IMG/VR virus record: IMGVR_UViG_3300045945_000195
Span: 1 to 26,132 of that record
Strand: one strand, 5' to 3'
DNA: 26,132 nucleotides
From: a virus
The position numbers were made by a program, and so were the translations under genes. Of this stretch, positions 2,109-8,812 are shown in pieces. How positions within the stretch are numbered: position 1 is the stretch's first letter; each line of letters begins with the position of its first letter. Below the pieces are notes generated by a model. That model was not told where the DNA came from. It made no database searches and saw nothing but the letters and a program-made list of their open reading frames with translations.

Positions 2109-2381
2109 CTACTTTCCCTTCTCGAAATATTTGCAGCTGTCGGTCGACAGCGGGATCTGCCGCTGCGGATGCGTCTTCATGTGCTTCCAGAACAGCGCAC
2201 AGGCATGCTGTTTCACGTAGTCGCGCTTGGCGGTCGCATACCGGTATCCGTAGTGCGCGCACTGCCCGCAGGTCGTGCCGGCGGGACCGGTGCCGCTCCA
2301 ATGCATCATGCCGTGCGGCGTCTGCGCGATCAGCTTGGCCAGCTCCGGGTTGGGCTCAGTCAGGTGCTTGTCGGCGCTCAT
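2109..2381 (-). CDS. hypothetical protein with putative zinc-binding cysteines, 90 aa
   Basis: The gene overlaps the end of the NrdR-like gene by 26 bases and ends two bases before the next start. Residues 38-83 contain 'CGQCAHYGY', then a single C ('HACALFW'), several histidines, then 'DSCKYFE'. This C-x2-C ... C ... C layout with basic residues suggests one metal site. No known family is assigned. Confidence 0.62.
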   Translation of the reverse strand: MSADKHLTEPNPELAKLIAQTPHGMMHWSGTGPAGTTCGQCAHYGYRYATAKRDYVKQHACALFWKHMKTHPQRQIPLSTDSCKYFEKGK

Positions 2382-2664
2382 CGTCGGGATCCGGGGCAGT
2401 GAGCTGGATGATCTCCTCGCGCAGGTTTTCGAGCGCGCCGATGGCGGCGTGGATGGCGCGCGCTGCCGAGCCCATGTGCTGCTCCAGGCGGCCGCCGCCG
2501 AGCGAGGTCTCCCAGGTCGTCCAGCGCCAGCCGCAGGCGAGGCACATGCGGCGCCGGCGCACCGCCGAGCTGCCCCCGAGCCCGGCGGGGCGGCTGTCCT
2601 TCACCATGGAGCTGCCGCCGCATTGCGGGCATGGATAGTTGGGCGTCTGTCGGTGTGCGGTCAT
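2356..2664 (-). CDS. NrdR-like zinc-ribbon protein without ATP-cone, 102 aa
   Basis: Residues 12-50 closely follow the zinc ribbon of NrdR, the repressor of ribonucleotide reductase genes: C12-x2-C15, 'VKDSRP' at 21-26, a basic stretch (RRRR) and C41-x2-C44, followed by 'GWRWTTWE' where NrdR has a G-x-R-F-T-T-x-E motif. NrdR continues with an ATP-cone of about 100 residues. Here the remaining 50 residues are short, helical and acidic, with no sign of an ATP-cone. The DNA-binding half is therefore kept and the nucleotide sensor lost. It might bind NrdR boxes in the host and affect dNTP supply, or simply be a zinc-ribbon DNA binder; both are inference. The start overlaps the HNH stop (TCATG at 2661-2665). 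Confidence 0.62.
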   Translation of the reverse strand: MTAHRQTPNYPCPQCGGSSMVKDSRPAGLGGSSAVRRRRMCLACGWRWTTWETSLGGGRLEQHMGSAARAIHAAIGALENLREEIIQLTAPDPDDERRQAPD

Positions 2665-3026
2665 GTCTGCAGGCGCCTCCCTTGCGGCCATCGATTGCGG
2701 CGCCGCTTGCTGCCGAGCTTGCGCGGCAAGCCGAGCAGCTTCGCTGCCATCCTCAATTGATGCTCGGCTTCGCCGAGCTGGATCCGGCGGCTCTTCGCCA
2801 GCGCCGGCATGTCGATCGTGTTGGTCTTCGTGCGGTGCGCCGCGCGCAGCATCGGCCGTAGGTTCCAGGGCGCATCGGGCCCGCCGTCGGCTTTGCGCAC
2901 CGGATAATGATCGAATTGGTAGAGCGAGATGATCTGCGCCGCAGTCATGCGCTTCGCATCCTCGTAGGGGATGTGGCCGAGCGCGAGCAGCGCCGAGGCG
3001 AGCTTGGTGGTGAGGGGCACGGTCAT
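2661..3026 (-). CDS. HNH endonuclease-like protein, 121 aa
   Basis: The central segment fits an HNH (His-Asn-His) nuclease fold: 'QFDHYPV' with D39-H40, 'DAPWNLRPM' with N55, 'RAAHRTKT' with H64 and K67, then D72 and 'AKSRR'. The C-terminus is strongly basic. Small HNH proteins of this size occur in phages as nicking or double-strand nucleases. The ATG at 3026 lies only 4 bases from the outer edge of the hairpin array at 3030-3283, so its leader would contain that array. A longer frame to 3104 would run through two hairpins and is unlikely. A functional link to the hairpins and the IS110-like protein upstream is inference from position. Confidence 0.68.
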   Translation of the reverse strand: MTVPLTTKLASALLALGHIPYEDAKRMTAAQIISLYQFDHYPVRKADGGPDAPWNLRPMLRAAHRTKTNTIDMPALAKSRRIQLGEAEHQLRMAAKLLGLPRKLGSKRRRNRWPQGRRLQT

Positions 3027-3029
3027 AGG

Positions 3030-3283
3030 TGGCCGGGCAGACCATAAGTGGATGTCAAGGGGCGGCTGGCCCGGCCGCGGGAGCACAGCGTCTTTGGATG
3101 ACACACGTATACTGGCTCCCAGGTTGATAAGCGGCCGGGCAGGCAGTCATTGGTTGTCACAGTGGATTTGGCCCGGCCGTGGGAGCAATGCTGCAGTGGA
3201 TGACACATGGACACTGGCTCCCATTAGGTTGATAGGTGGCCGGGCAATCCCACTGCGGGTATCACCACTACCCCGGCCCGGCC
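3030..3283. repeat. paired-hairpin array 1: five hairpins with 30-nt loops
   Basis: Five hairpins: A 3031-3076 (8-bp stem), B 3079-3120 (6 bp), C 3132-3179 (9 bp), D 3180-3223 (7 bp), E 3238-3283 (8 bp). The loops are 3039-3068, 3085-3114, 3141-3170, 3187-3216 and 3246-3275, each exactly 30 nt. Loop positions 11-20 read TGGATGTCAA, TGGATGACAC, TGGTTGTCAC, TGGATGACAC and CGGGTATCAC. A, C and E share the stem GGCCGGGC; B and D share GGGAGC, so pairs A-B and C-D repeat with E as a lone first member. Each A/C/E hairpin follows a similar leader (GGTTGATAGGT-like). The repeat period is 102-105 bases. E lies inside the last codons of the IS110-like gene. The transcribed strand, if any, is not known. 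Confidence 0.92.
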
Positions 3284-4102
3284 TCGCCGCTTGCGCGGCA
3301 TCTCGTGCTCATCGCTGATCGGCAACTTGCGCCACGCCTGCCACAGATGTTTCAGGTAGCGCTTCATCACGTAGCGGACGGCATCCTGGCGCGCGTGCAT
3401 CGGCGTCCAGTCGGGATGCGTCACCGCCGTGTGCTTGCGCCGGCTGACATAGGCTTCGCCGTAGGGGCCCTTCGGGCGGCCGTAGTCGGTGCCGGATTTT
3501 TCCTTGCCTTCGACCTGCGCATTGACCAGCCACAATCCGATCTGGAACATCAGCGCATAGCGCGAAGCATTGAACGGGTGTGCGATCCATTCTTCCTTGG
3601 TGAGCGAACGCGGCCGCCAGGTCTCACGCTTCCAGCTCGATCCGGCGAGGCCGTCGTAGGGTGCGAAGCCGAGGCGGCTCCAGACCTTGCCGGGATTGGC
3701 GTAATTGGCGAGGTCGCCGGTCTCGGCGATGATGGTCCCGAGCCCGAGCGCGGCGGCGCCATGCACGCTCTCGACATAGGCATAGACCGGCAGCGCTGCG
3801 GCAGCCTGCGTCATCTGCCGCTCCATCTCGGTACGTTCTAAATCAATCGGCTCTCGCACCAGTTCGGTGCGGGTGACGATGCGGATCAACTCGGGATCGC
3901 CCTCGCCTTTGCGCGCAGCCGTCAGCAAGGCGAGCGCCTTCTTGTTCTCTGCTGCACGTTGCTTCTCATCGAGATCGGGCGACCAGGCAGTGAAGTTGAT
4001 GCGGACGTAGCTCTCCAGCGCGCGATCGATCTTCTGCTGCAGCTTCATCCAATATCGGCGCTTGCGATGCAGCGCCTTCAGGGTGTCGACGGTGGCAGTC
4101 AT
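3224..4102 (-). CDS. IS110-family (Transposase_20 domain) recombinase-like protein lacking the DEDD/RuvC domain, 292 aa
   Basis: Residues 105-260 match the Transposase_20 (PF02371-type) C-terminal half of IS110 transposases: 'VHGAAALGLGTIIAETGDL' at 113-131 corresponds to the PGxGxxTAxxLxAExGDL helix-hairpin-helix, 'LGFAPYDG' to AGLAP, 'GSS' at 154-156 to the region of the catalytic serine, 'NASRYALMFQIGL' to GNRYLRRAL, and 'AVRYVMKRYLKHLWQAW' to the terminal ARKLL helix. Residues 1-104 are charged and helical (coiled-coil-like) and show no DEDD/RuvC motifs, so it is not a complete transposase. It may act as a partner-dependent or nuclease-inactive RNA/DNA-binding protein. The last 20 residues are encoded by hairpin E. 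Hairpin arrays lie immediately upstream (4124-4435) and downstream. No IS ends are visible; it looks like a resident operon gene. Confidence 0.72.
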   Translation of the reverse strand: MTATVDTLKALHRKRRYWMKLQQKIDRALESYVRINFTAWSPDLDEKQRAAENKKALALLTAARKGEGDPELIRIVTRTELVREPIDLERTEMERQMTQAAAALPVYAYVESVHGAAALGLGTIIAETGDLANYANPGKVWSRLGFAPYDGLAGSSWKRETWRPRSLTKEEWIAHPFNASRYALMFQIGLWLVNAQVEGKEKSGTDYGRPKGPYGEAYVSRRKHTAVTHPDWTPMHARQDAVRYVMKRYLKHLWQAWRKLPISDEHEMPRKRRGRAGVVVIPAVGLPGHLST

Positions 4103-4123
4103 CGGTTGCTCATGGGAAAGAGT

Positions 4124-4435
4124 GCGGAGCGGGCAATGCAGCTTGGGGCTTCAACGTACGGCTGGCCCGCTCCGCTGGCGGCAACGGGTGTGTGGACGTC
4201 AGCGCAGCTCTGGCCGCCGAAAAGAATGCGGGCGAGACGAGCAAGGGCGCTTTGGAGATCACAATTCGATAGGCTCGTCTCGCTGGCGGCAGCGGGTGTA
4301 CTGGGTGTCACGCCGTCAACGGCCGCCAATTCTGAATGGATGGGACGAGCACCGGAAGATTGGAGACCACAGTCCGACGGGCTCGTCCCGCTGGCGGCAA
4401 ATGTCGTCTGGATGTCACGAGAGGACAGGCCGCCA
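4124..4435. repeat. paired-hairpin array 2: six hairpins with 30-nt loops
   Basis: Three pairs: F 4124-4175 (11-bp stem) with G 4176-4219; H 4232-4283 (11 bp) with I 4284-4328; J 4342-4389 (9 bp) with K 4392-4435. G, I and K share the stem (T)GGCGGC; F, H and J have different but fully paired stems (GCGGAGCGGGC, GCGAGACGAGC, GGGACGAGC). Loops are 4135-4164, 4183-4212, 4243-4272, 4291-4321 (31 nt), 4351-4380 and 4399-4428. Cores are GGGGCTTCAA, TGGACGTCAG, TGGAGATCAC, TGGGTGTCAC, TGGAGACCAC and TGGATGTCAC. The period is 108-110 bases; spacers of 12-13 bases share GAATG. It fills the 343-base gap between two operon genes, directly upstream of the IS110-like gene. Confidence 0.94.
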
Positions 4436-4445
4436 ATTCGCATGA

Positions 4446-5159
4446 TCACGCCTCCAGCTGCGGCTGCACTGCACCGCGCCGCATCTGCAAGGCGACGTTC
4501 TCCGCCGCCTTGCGCAGTACGTCGGGCGCTTGCTTGGTTGCGAGCGCGGCGTACTTGCGCAGCTGCGGTTCGGCAATCCACTTGCGCAGCATGATGGTGT
4601 CGTCGCTGATGACGCCATGCTGCAGGCACATCTCCAGGAAGCCGACATTGCGGGCCTCGTTGAGATTGCGCAGGAAGCCGCGCTGCAGCCGGTCCATTCC
4701 CTCCTGCTGCAATGCTCTGATCTCACGCATGCGGATGTTCTTGCCGAAGCCGAAGTCATCGAGCACGCTGGCTTCGATGCGCGCGACCGACTTCGCAGCT
4801 TCGCGTTCGCCTTCGGTGCGCGGACGCTGAACAGGTGCGGGGCGGGCACCTGTGGCTTGGGTTTCAACACTACTTTGGTCCGCCCCGCTGGCGACGACGG
4901 CAATACCTTTCTGGGCTTCACGGCTACGTTGGCCGTCGTCGATCGTACCGCGCATATCCGCCGCGGCGATCTGCAAGCAGTTCATCGCCACCGCGCGCAA
5001 CAATGCGCTGTTCTTTTCCATGTCGCGCACCAGCCAGGCGCAAGCGCGGTCCATGTTGCCCTTGGCCTTTTGCAGGTGCCCGACCGCAGTCGTGTAGGCT
5101 TGCGCCGTCTCGCCGGTTGCCTTGAAGGCATCGCCGAAGGTCTTGTGGGGTTTGCTCAT
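4446..5159 (-). CDS. hypothetical protein with an in-frame hairpin-pair insertion, 237 aa
   Basis: The start at 5159 has a strong ribosome site (AGGAGGA) about 3 bases upstream. No family is recognised. Residues 1-70 and 110-235 are helix-rich and charged. Between them, residues 73-107 are a low-complexity linker (A, S, Q, T, G, P) encoded by the two hairpins at 4837-4941. That insertion is 105 bases, exactly 35 codons, so the frame is kept. A phylogenetic comparison should show homologues lacking the linker if this is a true insertion. It is the gene just upstream of the array 2 / IS110-like pair and may be part of that system; this is inference. Confidence 0.65.
   Translation of the reverse strand: MSKPHKTFGDAFKATGETAQAYTTAVGHLQKAKGNMDRACAWLVRDMEKNSALLRAVAMNCLQIAAADMRGTIDDGQRSREAQKGIAVVASGADQSSVETQATGARPAPVQRPRTEGEREAAKSVARIEASVLDDFGFGKNIRMREIRALQQEGMDRLQRGFLRNLNEARNVGFLEMCLQHGVISDDTIMLRKWIAEPQLRKYAALATKQAPDVLRKAAENVALQMRRGAVQPQLEA
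4837..4941. repeat. paired hairpin 3 (two hairpins) inside a coding sequence
   Basis: Hairpin L1 covers 4837-4888 with an 11-bp stem (one G-T pair at 4846/4879) and a loop at 4848-4877. L2 covers 4892-4941 with a 10-bp stem (CGACGACGGC) and a loop at 4902-4931. Both loops are exactly 30 nt, with cores TGGGTTTCAA and TGGGCTTCAC at loop positions 11-20, starting with A and ending with G as in the other eleven. The pair is 105 bases long, a multiple of three, and lies in frame within the gene at 4446-5159. Confidence 0.9.
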
Positions 5160-5686: not shown

Positions 5687-6315
5687 GCTGCAGCCTGCTG
5701 ATCCATGGCTTCGAACGCAGCGACGTCACGAGCCACGTCGTCGAGAAAATCACGGGCTTGCTTTTCCATCGTTGCAATCAGCGCATCGTCGCGATGGAAG
5801 CGCTTGATGTAGAGCTGCGCCCGCGCCGGCAAGCGATCGTCGAAGCTGACAAAGTCGCACCATTGCCGGCCGGTGCAGGCGATCTGCCACAGCATTTGCA
5901 GTGCGTACTCATTCGGCACCTTGGCGCGGCCGCGCAGCCACTTGAGATGAACGTGCGTGTCGGGACATTTGAATTCGACGAGGCCGTCATCGCCGACAAG
6001 ACCGTCCGGCGAGCATCCCGACATTTCGATCGTCGGGTGTGGGATGAAACCGACTTCGACGACATCGACGTCGCAGCGGAAGGCATAGGCGGCGCGGGCG
6101 CGCGCTTCCAGCATCGAGCCGCGCTCCATCGCGGCGGAGCGATATTGCTCGTAGGGCAGACCGGTGAGCCGCTCGGCGACGAGTTCTCCCCAGTAGCGCT
6201 CGCGCGATGCGCCCCAGCCGCCGCCCTTCACCGTGGCGACGGCATCGGCGAAGCGCGAGGCGGTGAGCTTGCCGACGCGCGCGAGCAGCCATTCCTGCGT
6301 GCGCTGTTCACTCAT
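5683..6315 (-). CDS. YqaJ-like viral recombinase / alkaline exonuclease, 210 aa
   Basis: The protein matches the YqaJ/lambda-Exo nuclease family. It begins with the typical 'RTQEWLLARVGKLTASRFADAV' region (residues 5-26), has E70 in 'RGSMLEARAR', and carries the nuclease core 'SPDGLVGDDGLVEFKCP' with D104, E114 and K116 as likely metal and catalytic residues. A Q140 helix follows (YALQMLWQIACTG). Length is normal for the family. It would degrade one strand of double-stranded ends so that the ERF protein can anneal the exposed strand. It lies three genes downstream of ERF in the same overlapping operon. Confidence 0.88.
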   Translation of the reverse strand: MSEQRTQEWLLARVGKLTASRFADAVATVKGGGWGASRERYWGELVAERLTGLPYEQYRSAAMERGSMLEARARAAYAFRCDVDVVEVGFIPHPTIEMSGCSPDGLVGDDGLVEFKCPDTHVHLKWLRGRAKVPNEYALQMLWQIACTGRQWCDFVSFDDRLPARAQLYIKRFHRDDALIATMEKQARDFLDDVARDVAAFEAMDQQAAA

Positions 6316-6490
6316 CGTCGATCGGCTCGTCGGCGTCGTAGCGTTGCATGATGTCGGCGCGAAATTTGCGCAGCTGCTTTTGCTCGCAGCGGTCGCAAGC
6401 GTAGGTGAGAAAAATGCCGTAGCCGTCGTAGAGCGGATAACGGTCGTGGCCGGATCCGCACGCGCACGAGGTGAGCAGCAGATAGCTCAT
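6308..6490 (-). CDS. small zinc-ribbon protein, 60 aa
   Basis: The ATG at 6490 overlaps the stop of the preceding gene by four bases, and its own end overlaps the exonuclease start by 8 bases, so translation is probably coupled. It begins 'MSYLLLTSCACGSGHDRY' and then has 'ACDRCEQKQ', giving two CxC/CxxC pairs that could bind one zinc. No family is assigned. Confidence 0.58.
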   Translation of the reverse strand: MSYLLLTSCACGSGHDRYPLYDGYGIFLTYACDRCEQKQLRKFRADIMQRYDADEPIDDE

Positions 6491-6741
6491 GATGAATTGC
6501 CCTCTGCCTTGGCGATGGCGGCAGTGATTGCTTCCGCCGCATCTTGCCGCTGTTGCGGCGTTGCGCTTGATCCAAAGCCAAAGGCAAACTGCGCCGCTTT
6601 CAGCGCCTCCAGCATCTCCGGTGCGGCGGCGATCAGGCGGGCATCTTCTGGATTGGTGAGGAAACCCGTCCATCCATCCTTGTGAGGGATGCCGATGCTA
6701 AACTTGCCGTCGTATTCCCATGGTCCGGGTGTGTGCTTCAT
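6487..6741 (-). CDS. conserved phage protein of the 'HTPGPW' type, 84 aa
   Basis: The start 'MKHTPGPWEYDG' and the later 'NPEDARLIAAAPEMLEALK' form a pattern I recognise from many small phage and prophage proteins of unknown function near recombination genes. The second half is helical and alanine-rich. The ATG overlaps the ERF stop by four bases (6741-6738). Confidence 0.75.
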   Translation of the reverse strand: MKHTPGPWEYDGKFSIGIPHKDGWTGFLTNPEDARLIAAAPEMLEALKAAQFAFGFGSSATPQQRQDAAEAITAAIAKAEGNSS

Positions 6742-7529: not shown

Positions 7530-7939
7530 TCACTGGTTTCCTTCGGGGGCAGTGCCGGCAGGTCGAGCTTGTCCAGCTCGGCGCATTGCTGGCGCAGCGT
7601 CTTCATGGTCTGCATGGAGAGGCGCACCTCCTCCTGCAGGCGCTGAATGTCGGCGGCGATGCGGGAGGTGTGCTTGGTGTAGAGGTCGCGCACCGCCTGG
7701 GCGTCGTTCTTGAGTTCGGCCAGTTCGGCCTCGACGCGGGAGAGCAGCTCGTCGATCTCGCGGGTCGGCAGCTCGCCGAAACTGAGGATCTGCTTGAAGC
7801 TCGTGTCGGCGCGCACCTCCGGCGGGCCATAGTCGGAGGGCGCCGAGGAAGTTGCCGCCAGGTCGGAGATTTCGCGGGCGAGGCTGCCCATGTCGACGAC
7901 GGGATCGTGGCGTGGCTTGAAGTCGAAGCTCTTGCGCAT
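7526..7939 (-). CDS. coiled-coil protein, first gene of the leftward operon, 137 aa
   Basis: The ATG at 7939 is the first start after the leader hairpin (7963-8010). Residues 60-125 form a long charged helix with heptad-like spacing (EIDELLSRVEAELAEL ... IQRLQEEVRLSMQTMKTLRQQ), so a coiled coil is likely. The N-terminus is polar. No family is recognised. In lambda-type phages this position is held by antiterminator N, but there is no arginine-rich RNA-binding motif here, so that role is not supported. Confidence 0.7.
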   Translation of the reverse strand: MRKSFDFKPRHDPVVDMGSLAREISDLAATSSAPSDYGPPEVRADTSFKQILSFGELPTREIDELLSRVEAELAELKNDAQAVRDLYTKHTSRIAADIQRLQEEVRLSMQTMKTLRQQCAELDKLDLPALPPKETSE

Positions 7940-7962
7940 TCAATGCTCCGCGGGTTGGAAAA

Positions 7963-8010
7963 GCCCCAGCCGTTGGGGTGCATGACGCGAGACGCAGCAA
8001 CGGCTGGGGC
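7963..8010 (-). terminator. leader hairpin / possible attenuator of the left operon
   Basis: A perfect 13-bp inverted repeat (7963-7975 with 7998-8010, GCCCCAGCCGTTG) encloses 22 bases. Read leftward, it is followed by CTTTTCC, a weak U-run. Within the same bases, CCCCA/TGGGG at 7964-7978 can form a smaller competing hairpin. It sits between the leftward promoter and the first ATG at 7939, so it could terminate transcripts early or act as an antitermination or regulatory element. It does not share the loop core of the paired-hairpin family. Confidence 0.6.
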
Positions 8011-8141
8011 ACGCTACGCAACAGGGACAAGAACGATGATCCGTGCCGCTCGCGCTGGGGGCGAGCCGGGAACGCAACATGATGGGAACGGCCTCCTGGG
8101 CGACAGACTGGGTTGATTTGCCGCGCCTGACAATGCCAATA

Positions 8142-8185
8142 ATTTTAGGAAAACTAAAATATTATAGAAAACCTTAATCTCTCAA
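8142..8185 (-). promoter_or_regulatory. leftward early promoter with operator-like dyads
   Basis: A 46-base AT-rich island in GC-rich DNA holds a perfect TATAAT box on the minus strand (8166-8161). A TTGAGA lies at 8185-8180, but only 13 bases away, so the -35 is uncertain. Overlapping it are the 19-bp dyad ATTTTAG-GAAAA-CTAAAAT (8142-8160) and a second, weaker dyad ATTA-N10-TAAT (8161-8178), centred about 18.5 bp apart. The sequence TAGGAAAA in the first dyad recurs in the dyad upstream of the repressor. Position between repressor and left operon matches lambda pL/oL. Confidence 0.6.
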
Positions 8186-8209
8186 CCCGGTTGCTCCCGA
8201 TTTCACATT

Positions 8210-8812
8210 TTATTTCAGCGGCCCTGGGCAGGCGGAGAACAGGCCGGGCCCGAGCGGGATGAGCTGGCGGGCGCGGAAGTGGCAGCAGATTTCGCCGAGC
8301 CAGGTCACCTCGGCATCGAGGTAGTCGGGCGAGCCGAGCTGCTGCAGCCGCATCAGCCTGGCATGCCCCTGGAGCGGGCTGAGCAGGCCCAGCATGCGGC
8401 GATCCGGGTTGCGGGTGGCCACCAGCACCTCCTCCCCGAAATAGCTCACCAGCGGCCGCCGCTGCGCCTCCCAGTAGATCACCACGTCGCCGTCGCCGTA
8501 GCGCGGCCACAGGTGATGGCCATTGAGGCGCACCGCGGCGAGCGGGGCGGAGGGCACGAACGGGAGCTGCACCTCGGCACGGTGGGCGGCCGGCAGCGAC
8601 ACGATCTCGCCGCCGGGCTCGATGATGCCGACGAGCGGCACCCGGTCGAGGCCGAGGAACTCGATCAGCTTCGGCAGCTCCGTGACGGTGATGCGGCGGC
8701 GGCCGGCGAGGAGGGCGGAAAGCGTCGCCTGGGACACGCCAAGGGCTTGAGCCAGCGCGGTTTTGCTCAACCGACGCTCGGCGATGCGGGCACGGATGAG
8801 GCCCGGTTCCAT
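8210..8812 (-). CDS. phage repressor (CI-like) with HTH and S24-like C-domain lacking the catalytic serine, 200 aa
   Basis: Residues 16-38 form a canonical helix-turn-helix (KTALAQALGVSQATLSALLAG). Residues 80-200 resemble the LexA/CI S24 peptidase-like domain: 'LNGHHLWPRYGDGDVVIYW' aligns with the G-x-S-M-x-P-x-x-x-x-G-D motif, but the catalytic serine position is histidine and no matching lysine is clear ('ARLMRL'). Such a protein should dimerise but not self-cleave. The start at 8812 was chosen because the HTH begins here; a longer frame to 9034 would cross the rightward promoter and cro. It is transcribed away from cro and between two operator-like regions, the arrangement of a lysogeny repressor. 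Confidence 0.85.
   Translation of the reverse strand: MEPGLIRARIAERRLSKTALAQALGVSQATLSALLAGRRRITVTELPKLIEFLGLDRVPLVGIIEPGGEIVSLPAAHRAEVQLPFVPSAPLAAVRLNGHHLWPRYGDGDVVIYWEAQRRPLVSYFGEEVLVATRNPDRRMLGLLSPLQGHARLMRLQQLGSPDYLDAEVTWLGEICCHFRARQLIPLGPGLFSACPGPLK

Follow-up and report, generated by a model that had tools for sequence, protein, structure and literature searches.

The stretch of DNA analyzed here (the window, 26,132 nucleotides) is IMG/VR record IMGVR_UViG_3300045945_000195, a 26-kb fragment of a P22-like phage with portal, terminase and capsid genes. The portal protein has only distant relatives among sequenced phages, with at most ~32% identity among the matches listed. Thirteen hairpins lie in three clusters between positions 3030 and 4941 and are flanked by genes on the minus strand. 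Between clusters 1 and 2 sits tasA, which encodes a Nop-domain protein, and next to cluster 2 is an open reading frame (ORF) of a conserved, unnamed family, called the partner gene below (Table 1). Recombination genes (ERF, YqaJ and NinB-like) adjoin the locus. We conclude that the locus is very probably a phage-borne TIGR-TasA system of the stem-loop type. TIGR-Tas is an RNA-guided DNA-targeting system that was first described in 2025 (Faure et al. 2025, PMC12045711).

Table 1. Features of the hairpin locus. Spacers are the two 9-nt variable segments of each loop; 5' and 3' mates are named in the sense of the minus strand.
Feature	Position	Strand	Stem	Spacers	Remarks
Stem-loop tigRNA	3031..3076	-	8 bp	GCCGCCCCT, CTTATGGTC	30-nt loop; doublet 1, 3' mate
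Stem-loop tigRNA	3079..3120	-	6 bp	GTATACGTG, AAGACGCTG	doublet 1, 5' mate
Stem-loop tigRNA	3132..3179	-	9 bp	AATCCACTG, ATGACTGCC	doublet 2, 3' mate
Stem-loop tigRNA	3180..3223	-	7 bp	GTGTCCATG, CTGCAGCAT	doublet 2, 5' mate
tasA, Nop-domain TIGR-associated protein without nuclease domain, 292 aa	3224..4102	-			profile, model and fold matches
Single stem-loop tigRNA	3238..3283	-	8 bp	GGGTAGTGG, CAGTGGGAT	overlaps 3' end of tasA ORF
Stem-loop tigRNA	4124..4175	-	11 bp	GCCGTACGT, AAGCTGCAT	doublet 3, 3' mate
Stem-loop tigRNA	4177..4218	-	6 bp	GAGCTGCGC, CACACCCGT	doublet 3, 5' mate
Stem-loop tigRNA	4232..4283	-	11 bp	ATCGAATTG, AAGCGCCCT	doublet 4, 3' mate
Stem-loop tigRNA	4284..4328	-	7 bp		sole 31-nt loop; doublet 4, 5' mate
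Stem-loop tigRNA	4342..4389	-	9 bp	GTCGGACTG, ATCTTCCGG	doublet 5, 3' mate
Stem-loop tigRNA	4392..4435	-	7 bp	GTCCTCTCG, GACGACATT	doublet 5, 5' mate
Conserved partner ORF, unnamed family, 237 aa	4446..5159	-			family profile E 1.2e-9 among 13,019 ORFs
Stem-loop tigRNA	4837..4888	-	11 bp, one A-C mismatch in sense	AAGTAGTGT, AGCCACAGG	doublet 6, 3' mate
Stem-loop tigRNA	4892..4941	-	10 bp	ACGTAGCCG, GAAAGGTAT	doublet 6, 5' mate; in frame inside ORF 4446-5159

All thirteen hairpins are present where an earlier, sequence-only reading of the window had placed them. A strict scan for stems of at least 6 Watson-Crick pairs around a loop of the form A...GG....CA...G found 12 hairpins in the window, whereas 200 dinucleotide-preserving shuffles averaged 0.22 per window and never exceeded 2. 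The 13th, at 4837-4888, has one G-T pair on the plus strand and falls outside the strict scan. As had been reported, the loop is 30 nt long in 12 of the 13 hairpins and 31 nt in the other, and its A, GG, CA and G are constant throughout. The motif TGGnnnTCAC, given as a rule for the middle of the loop, is the majority pattern and not a fixed one. Pair mates do lie 0-3 nt apart, but the fifth hairpin has no mate, and neighboring pairs are 11-14 nt apart instead of the reported 12-14 nt. The doublets repeat in tandem every 102-108 nt. The claimed covariation of the stems was borne out in a set of 164 loop motifs from 18 loci in which the stems were left free: stem positions 2-8 pair at 85-93%, compared to 33-72% with the partners shuffled. 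Folding of the minus strand also beats that of shuffled sequences (z -5.0 for 4120-4440 and z -4.0 for 3026-3288), with the caveat that minimum-energy folds of the naked RNA leave some of the 30-nt loops not open. No Rfam family accounts for the hairpins, either at the gathering threshold or at E values up to 10. A promoter and terminator scan of the region gave nothing exceeding shuffles, and the idea of a "skipping-rope" motif yielded nothing.

Almost certainly, the minus strand is the functional one. On it, the loop reads CA-N9-TG-N4-CCA-N9-T and is closed by a stem ending in GC. The consensus of 163 distinct loops is CA-N9-TG-A-A-R-Y-CCA-N9-T in sense, with near-random spacers. The sequence-only reading had the RNA strand reversed: what it gave as the GG....CA core is UG-N4-CCA read from the complementary strand. 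Among hairpins whose stems reach at least 7 bp, 144 of 144 are co-oriented with tasA. A weak additional sign of the sense strand is that G-U cells outnumber A-C cells in sense (36 vs 20, p 0.04).

Two types of TIGR array are set out in the main text of the describing paper (PMC12045711). In dual-repeat arrays, edge and loop repeats alternate, start with UG and end with CCA, and 9-nt spacers lie between them. The second type consists of tandem stem-loops, in each of which the stem is palindromic but variable and two spacers of 8-12 nt lie between box C and box D. Because the loops in the window match this box C/D, two-spacer, palindromic-stem definition, we assign the hairpins to the stem-loop type. 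The opinion that no described element has this build is thus overturned, while the suggestion that a constant frame in the loop, with its two variable arms, looks like that of a guide element is supported; these arms correspond to the two 9-nt spacers of a guide RNA (tigRNA). The hairpins are not a new family but a member of TIGR-Tas in which the paired architecture is specific to the clade and a partner gene is present.

The dual-repeat arrays, which make a 36-nt tigRNA and occur with TasR, TasH or TasA, have a homologous Tas protein, 9-nt spacers and a loop repeat starting with UG and ending with CCA (as in loci L098, L106, L127 and L137) in common with the window. They differ in that the window has a 6-11-bp stem in place of the edge repeat and a unit of ~42-52 nt instead of 36 nt. 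The dual-repeat type itself was rejected for the window, whose units are stemmed and have no 36-nt period, as opposed to two alternating repeats of 8-12 nt. The variable palindromic stem at positions 2-8 replaces the edge repeat, and dual-repeat loci show no such stem. A CRISPR array was also rejected, since the stems differ between units and the conserved parts are short box motifs, not near-identical repeats.

The candidate effector gene, tasA, was missed by the sequence-only reading. A profile built from an alignment of 45 relatives collected from the fetched loci matches TasR (PDB 9mty, E 2.6e-61), TasH (E 2.8e-32) and the recombinases IS621 (E 1e-3) and ISCro4 (E 4e-3). The AlphaFold2 model of the protein is of high confidence (predicted local distance difference test 90, predicted template modeling score 0.84). 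Foldseek and VIA-align comparisons of this model rank TasH and TasR first, IS110 recombinases next and Nop5 after them, with VIA-align Z scores of 16.6 for TasH, 16.3 for TasR (both over ~190-200 residues), 14.0 for ISCro4 and 8.2 for Nop5. Matches of middling VIA-align score (dynein, ABC transporters, 14-3-3) were disregarded, since they reflect long helices. Residues 1-273 align solely with the Nop part of TasH and TasR, and no nuclease family, RuvC and HNH included, was found in the protein with Pfam. Since the protein holds the Nop part alone, it is of the TasA subtype.

Related loci were collected from IMG/VR by the loop motif alone, using the pattern GCA N9 TGGRTTYCA N9 TGGC. The counts are of the matches listed, and totals are at least as high. 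Some of the contigs carry hairpins like those of the window; in others there are tandem arrays that repeat every 36 nt exactly, read TGAAACCCA-N9-TGCGAGCCA-N9 in sense and fit the published TIGR definition. The same TasA family adjoins these classic dual-repeat arrays. At loci with two or more motifs or hairpins, which were fetched by the DNA motif only, TasA is encoded in the fetched stretch in 32 of 42 cases and in the whole record in 37 of 42, compared to 8 of 77 single-motif loci, all among the matches listed. Where a single-motif locus encodes TasA, it is in some cases a dual-repeat array in which one unit alone fits the exact pattern. The sequence-only reading had named a lack of further examples outside this phage as grounds for giving it up, and many examples were found. 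In bacterial and archaeal genomes, the same pattern gave at least 119 matches, with one motif each and TasA in 0 of 119; as single motifs without TasA, these are attributed to chance. A first pattern with the wrong spacer length (N10) served as a control, since its 77 chance matches had no hairpins or TasA in the fetched stretches. One record with the N10 pattern, L017, is a true array record that the correct pattern also matched.

Several results weigh against the assignment to TIGR-TasA or against DNA targeting. The TasA of the window, used alone, reaches just TasR 9mty at E 0.1 and Transposase_20 at E 0.13. Five multi-motif records have no detectable TasA. The predicted 18-bp target sites of 377 tigRNAs, searched in 2.7 Mb of self, relative and local sequence, show no excess over shuffled spacer pairs. 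Three targets of the window searched in IMG/VR gave 5, 4 and 1 matches, which is about chance level; the five matches are in one gene of one phage family.

Two other identities were considered for the hairpins. If they were palindromic mobile elements (REP, RPE or MITE-like) that do not act as guides and have spread between genes and, in frame, into one gene, the dispersal of the clusters and the in-frame site in a disordered linker of ORF 4446-5159 would be explained. However, hypervariable spacers beside a fixed 30-nt length and fixed box motifs, the constant co-orientation with tasA and the linkage to a Nop-domain protein do not fit such elements, and we consider this explanation extremely improbable. 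We think nearly as little of the alternative that the hairpins are cis-acting regulatory or decoy RNAs for a phage RNA-binding protein, not DNA guides. The absence of a nuclease from TasA and the target search that found none would suit it, but two hypervariable 9-nt segments in a fixed register are unexpected of protein-binding sites, and the relatives TasR and TasH pair with DNA in the same register.

By analogy with these relatives, the stem-loop TIGR-TasA system of the window quite probably carries out RNA-guided DNA binding. The arrays would be transcribed on the minus strand together with tasA and the partner gene, and the transcript would be cut in the linkers between hairpins, as shown for a related array (PMC12045711). 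Each hairpin would give one tigRNA, in which a clamp stem is followed by box C (CCA), the 9-nt spacer A, box D (UG) and a 4-nt turn, and then by a second box C, the 9-nt spacer B and a second box D. Judging from the TasR and TasH structures, a TasA dimer may hold the two C/D pairs, so that spacers A and B would pair with opposite strands of one 18-bp double-stranded DNA site, which would be unwound and sharply bent. Published cut positions with 3' overhangs suggest a target that begins with spacer A and continues with the reverse complement of spacer B; the site predicted for the hairpin at 4892-4941 is ACGTAGCCGATACCTTTC. Since TasA has no nuclease, the target DNA is likely blocked or bent, not cut, which would either occlude transcription or replication of a competitor or remodel the DNA for a partner protein. 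Occlusion of competitor DNA is put forward only tentatively as the role.

The paired arrangement is found in eight loci, the window and seven others, whose TasA proteins form one clade (support 100/100) nested in a larger TasA group with single stem-loops. TasA identity to that of the window is 46-54% across the diverged doublet loci. After deduplication, 47 of 48 neighbor pairs follow a regular alternation of short gaps (at most 4 nt) and long gaps (7-18 nt), and in sense the longer stem belongs to the 3' hairpin in 45 of 50 doublets. The spacers of doublet mates were compared, and no relation between them was found. In the main text of the describing paper, the account of the stem-loop array makes no mention of paired hairpins (PMC12045711). 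The doublets and the partner gene exceed that main text; either may already stand in its supplement.

In the doublet clade, the unit would have grown to an ordered pair, with the shorter-stemmed hairpin followed by the longer-stemmed one. On balance, we lean towards the doublet being a by-product of array growth, in which recombination at the conserved stems duplicates a two-hairpin segment, the spacers diverge and the hairpins act alone. The doublets of one phage have stems in common and differ in their spacers, and the copies in the window stand in tandem, as this would produce. Neutral duplication would not, however, be expected to keep the order and the stem-length asymmetry over eight diverged loci. 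That regularity, with the alternating gaps and the single TasA clade, speaks for the doublet working as a unit, a single processed RNA that has two guide loops, is read by two TasA dimers and resembles the two-loop IS110 bridge RNA, which the describing paper likens to a fusion of two tigRNAs (PMC12045711). Such a unit seems doubtful to us, since the sole stem-loop array studied there yielded single-hairpin RNAs, TasA has no counterpart of the DEDD catalytic domain that IS110 carries, the spacers of mates are unrelated and single hairpins occur too. It is more unlikely still that the ordered two-hairpin RNAs of this clade, with four spacers and two TasA dimers, join two 18-bp sites, possibly with the partner protein. 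If they did, DNA would be tethered without a nuclease in a bridge-RNA-like way, and tigRNAs and IS110 bridge RNAs would have a natural intermediate in this system. More generally, a doublet that is one RNA would bear on the origin of the two-loop bridge RNAs of transposases.

The partner family, of ~230 aa and on the same strand as tasA, occurs in the doublet clade and at some single stem-loop loci. The gene is upstream of tasA except in L102, where it is downstream. In the window, doublet 6 (cluster 3) encodes residues 73-108 of the partner protein in frame; a low-confidence model places almost the same residues (73-109) in a disordered segment that joins two helical parts. Hairpins inside the partner ORF are also present in L199 and L010. 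Searches with ORF 4446-5159 and its relatives against Pfam, PHROGs, PDB sequences and folds (the last with the low-confidence model) gave no outstanding match and none that was ParB-like; DUF6195 matched weakly in two members. According to the main text of the describing paper, TasA has no clear protein associations apart from a ParB-like gene, which is described with dual-repeat arrays (PMC12045711). Members of the family, which is predicted to be helical, are found at L004 4840-5478, L102 6943-7593, L125 3293-3895, L152 3866-4570 and L162 1888-2607, and further members at L199 2997-3761, L010 5271-5912, L011 4990-5502 and L012 4697-5278.

The nearest described counterpart is the TIGR-TasA stem-loop array of a Peromyscus leucopus gut contig (Faure et al. 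2025, Fig. 7, PMC12045711), the one stem-loop array covered by the bench study in the main text. Expression and processing of this array together with its TasA were demonstrated there. Like the window, it has a nuclease-free TasA and several hairpin subarrays, with 13 hairpins in total and variable palindromic stems. As far as the main text goes, it differs in that RNA sequencing gave single-hairpin units and no pairs are described, whereas the window has asymmetric doublets, a loop linker whose length is fixed and whose pattern is conserved, and another conserved gene by tasA. The IS110 bridge RNA systems (IS621, ISCro4) have a related Nop-type RNA-binding fold (Z 14), and their two guide loops resemble a doublet. 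An IS110 system was nevertheless rejected for the window, since the DEDD recombinase domain is absent, the first residue of TasA corresponds to position 124 of ISCro4 and IS621, there are many guides in place of one RNA and no transposon ends were seen. Box C/D small ribonucleoproteins (Nop5, fibrillarin, L7Ae) have in common with the window the Nop fold (Z 8.2) and C/D boxes around two guides; unlike them, the window has no kink-turn, and its target would be DNA.

TIGR-Tas is a recent discovery, and this clade offers a conserved two-hairpin unit and a partner gene, both of which can be tested. A relative of TasA is carried by a cultured Sinorhizobium phage, Rhizobium phage RHph_X2_25 (L339, MW960032.1), the sole sequenced isolate with a detectable one (7545-8600, annotated as hypothetical). 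Its hairpins near that gene, at 6451-6503 and 8609-8656, have loops of 33 and 30 nt and box motifs unlike those of the window. A Tas-type profile run against 397 genomes of Alsobacter's order gave one match, a TasA-like protein in a 468-aa ORF (L338, G175:C12:282616-283461) without an array of the window type.

Some minor observations were made along the way. The loop motif alone retrieved dual-repeat TIGR arrays in many IMG/VR contigs (L098, L106, L127, L137, L139, L142, L124/L091, L166 and L167 among others), and more exist beyond the matches listed. A 73,103-base record, L096, has paired stem-loop tigRNAs and a partner-gene fragment at 6178-6653, yet TasA was found nowhere in it; its TasA may be very divergent, the record incomplete or the array used in trans. 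Beside the stem-loop TIGR locus of viral contig L005, a 110-nt match to transfer-messenger RNA (tmRNA) at 4142-4251 on the plus strand scored 34.9 bits, below the gathering threshold of 47, and ARAGORN called no gene there; it is possibly the remnant of a tmRNA end or an attachment site. In the window, a gene for an NrdR-like zinc-ribbon protein (2356-3026, minus strand) lies directly downstream of cluster 1 and runs in the same direction as tasA.

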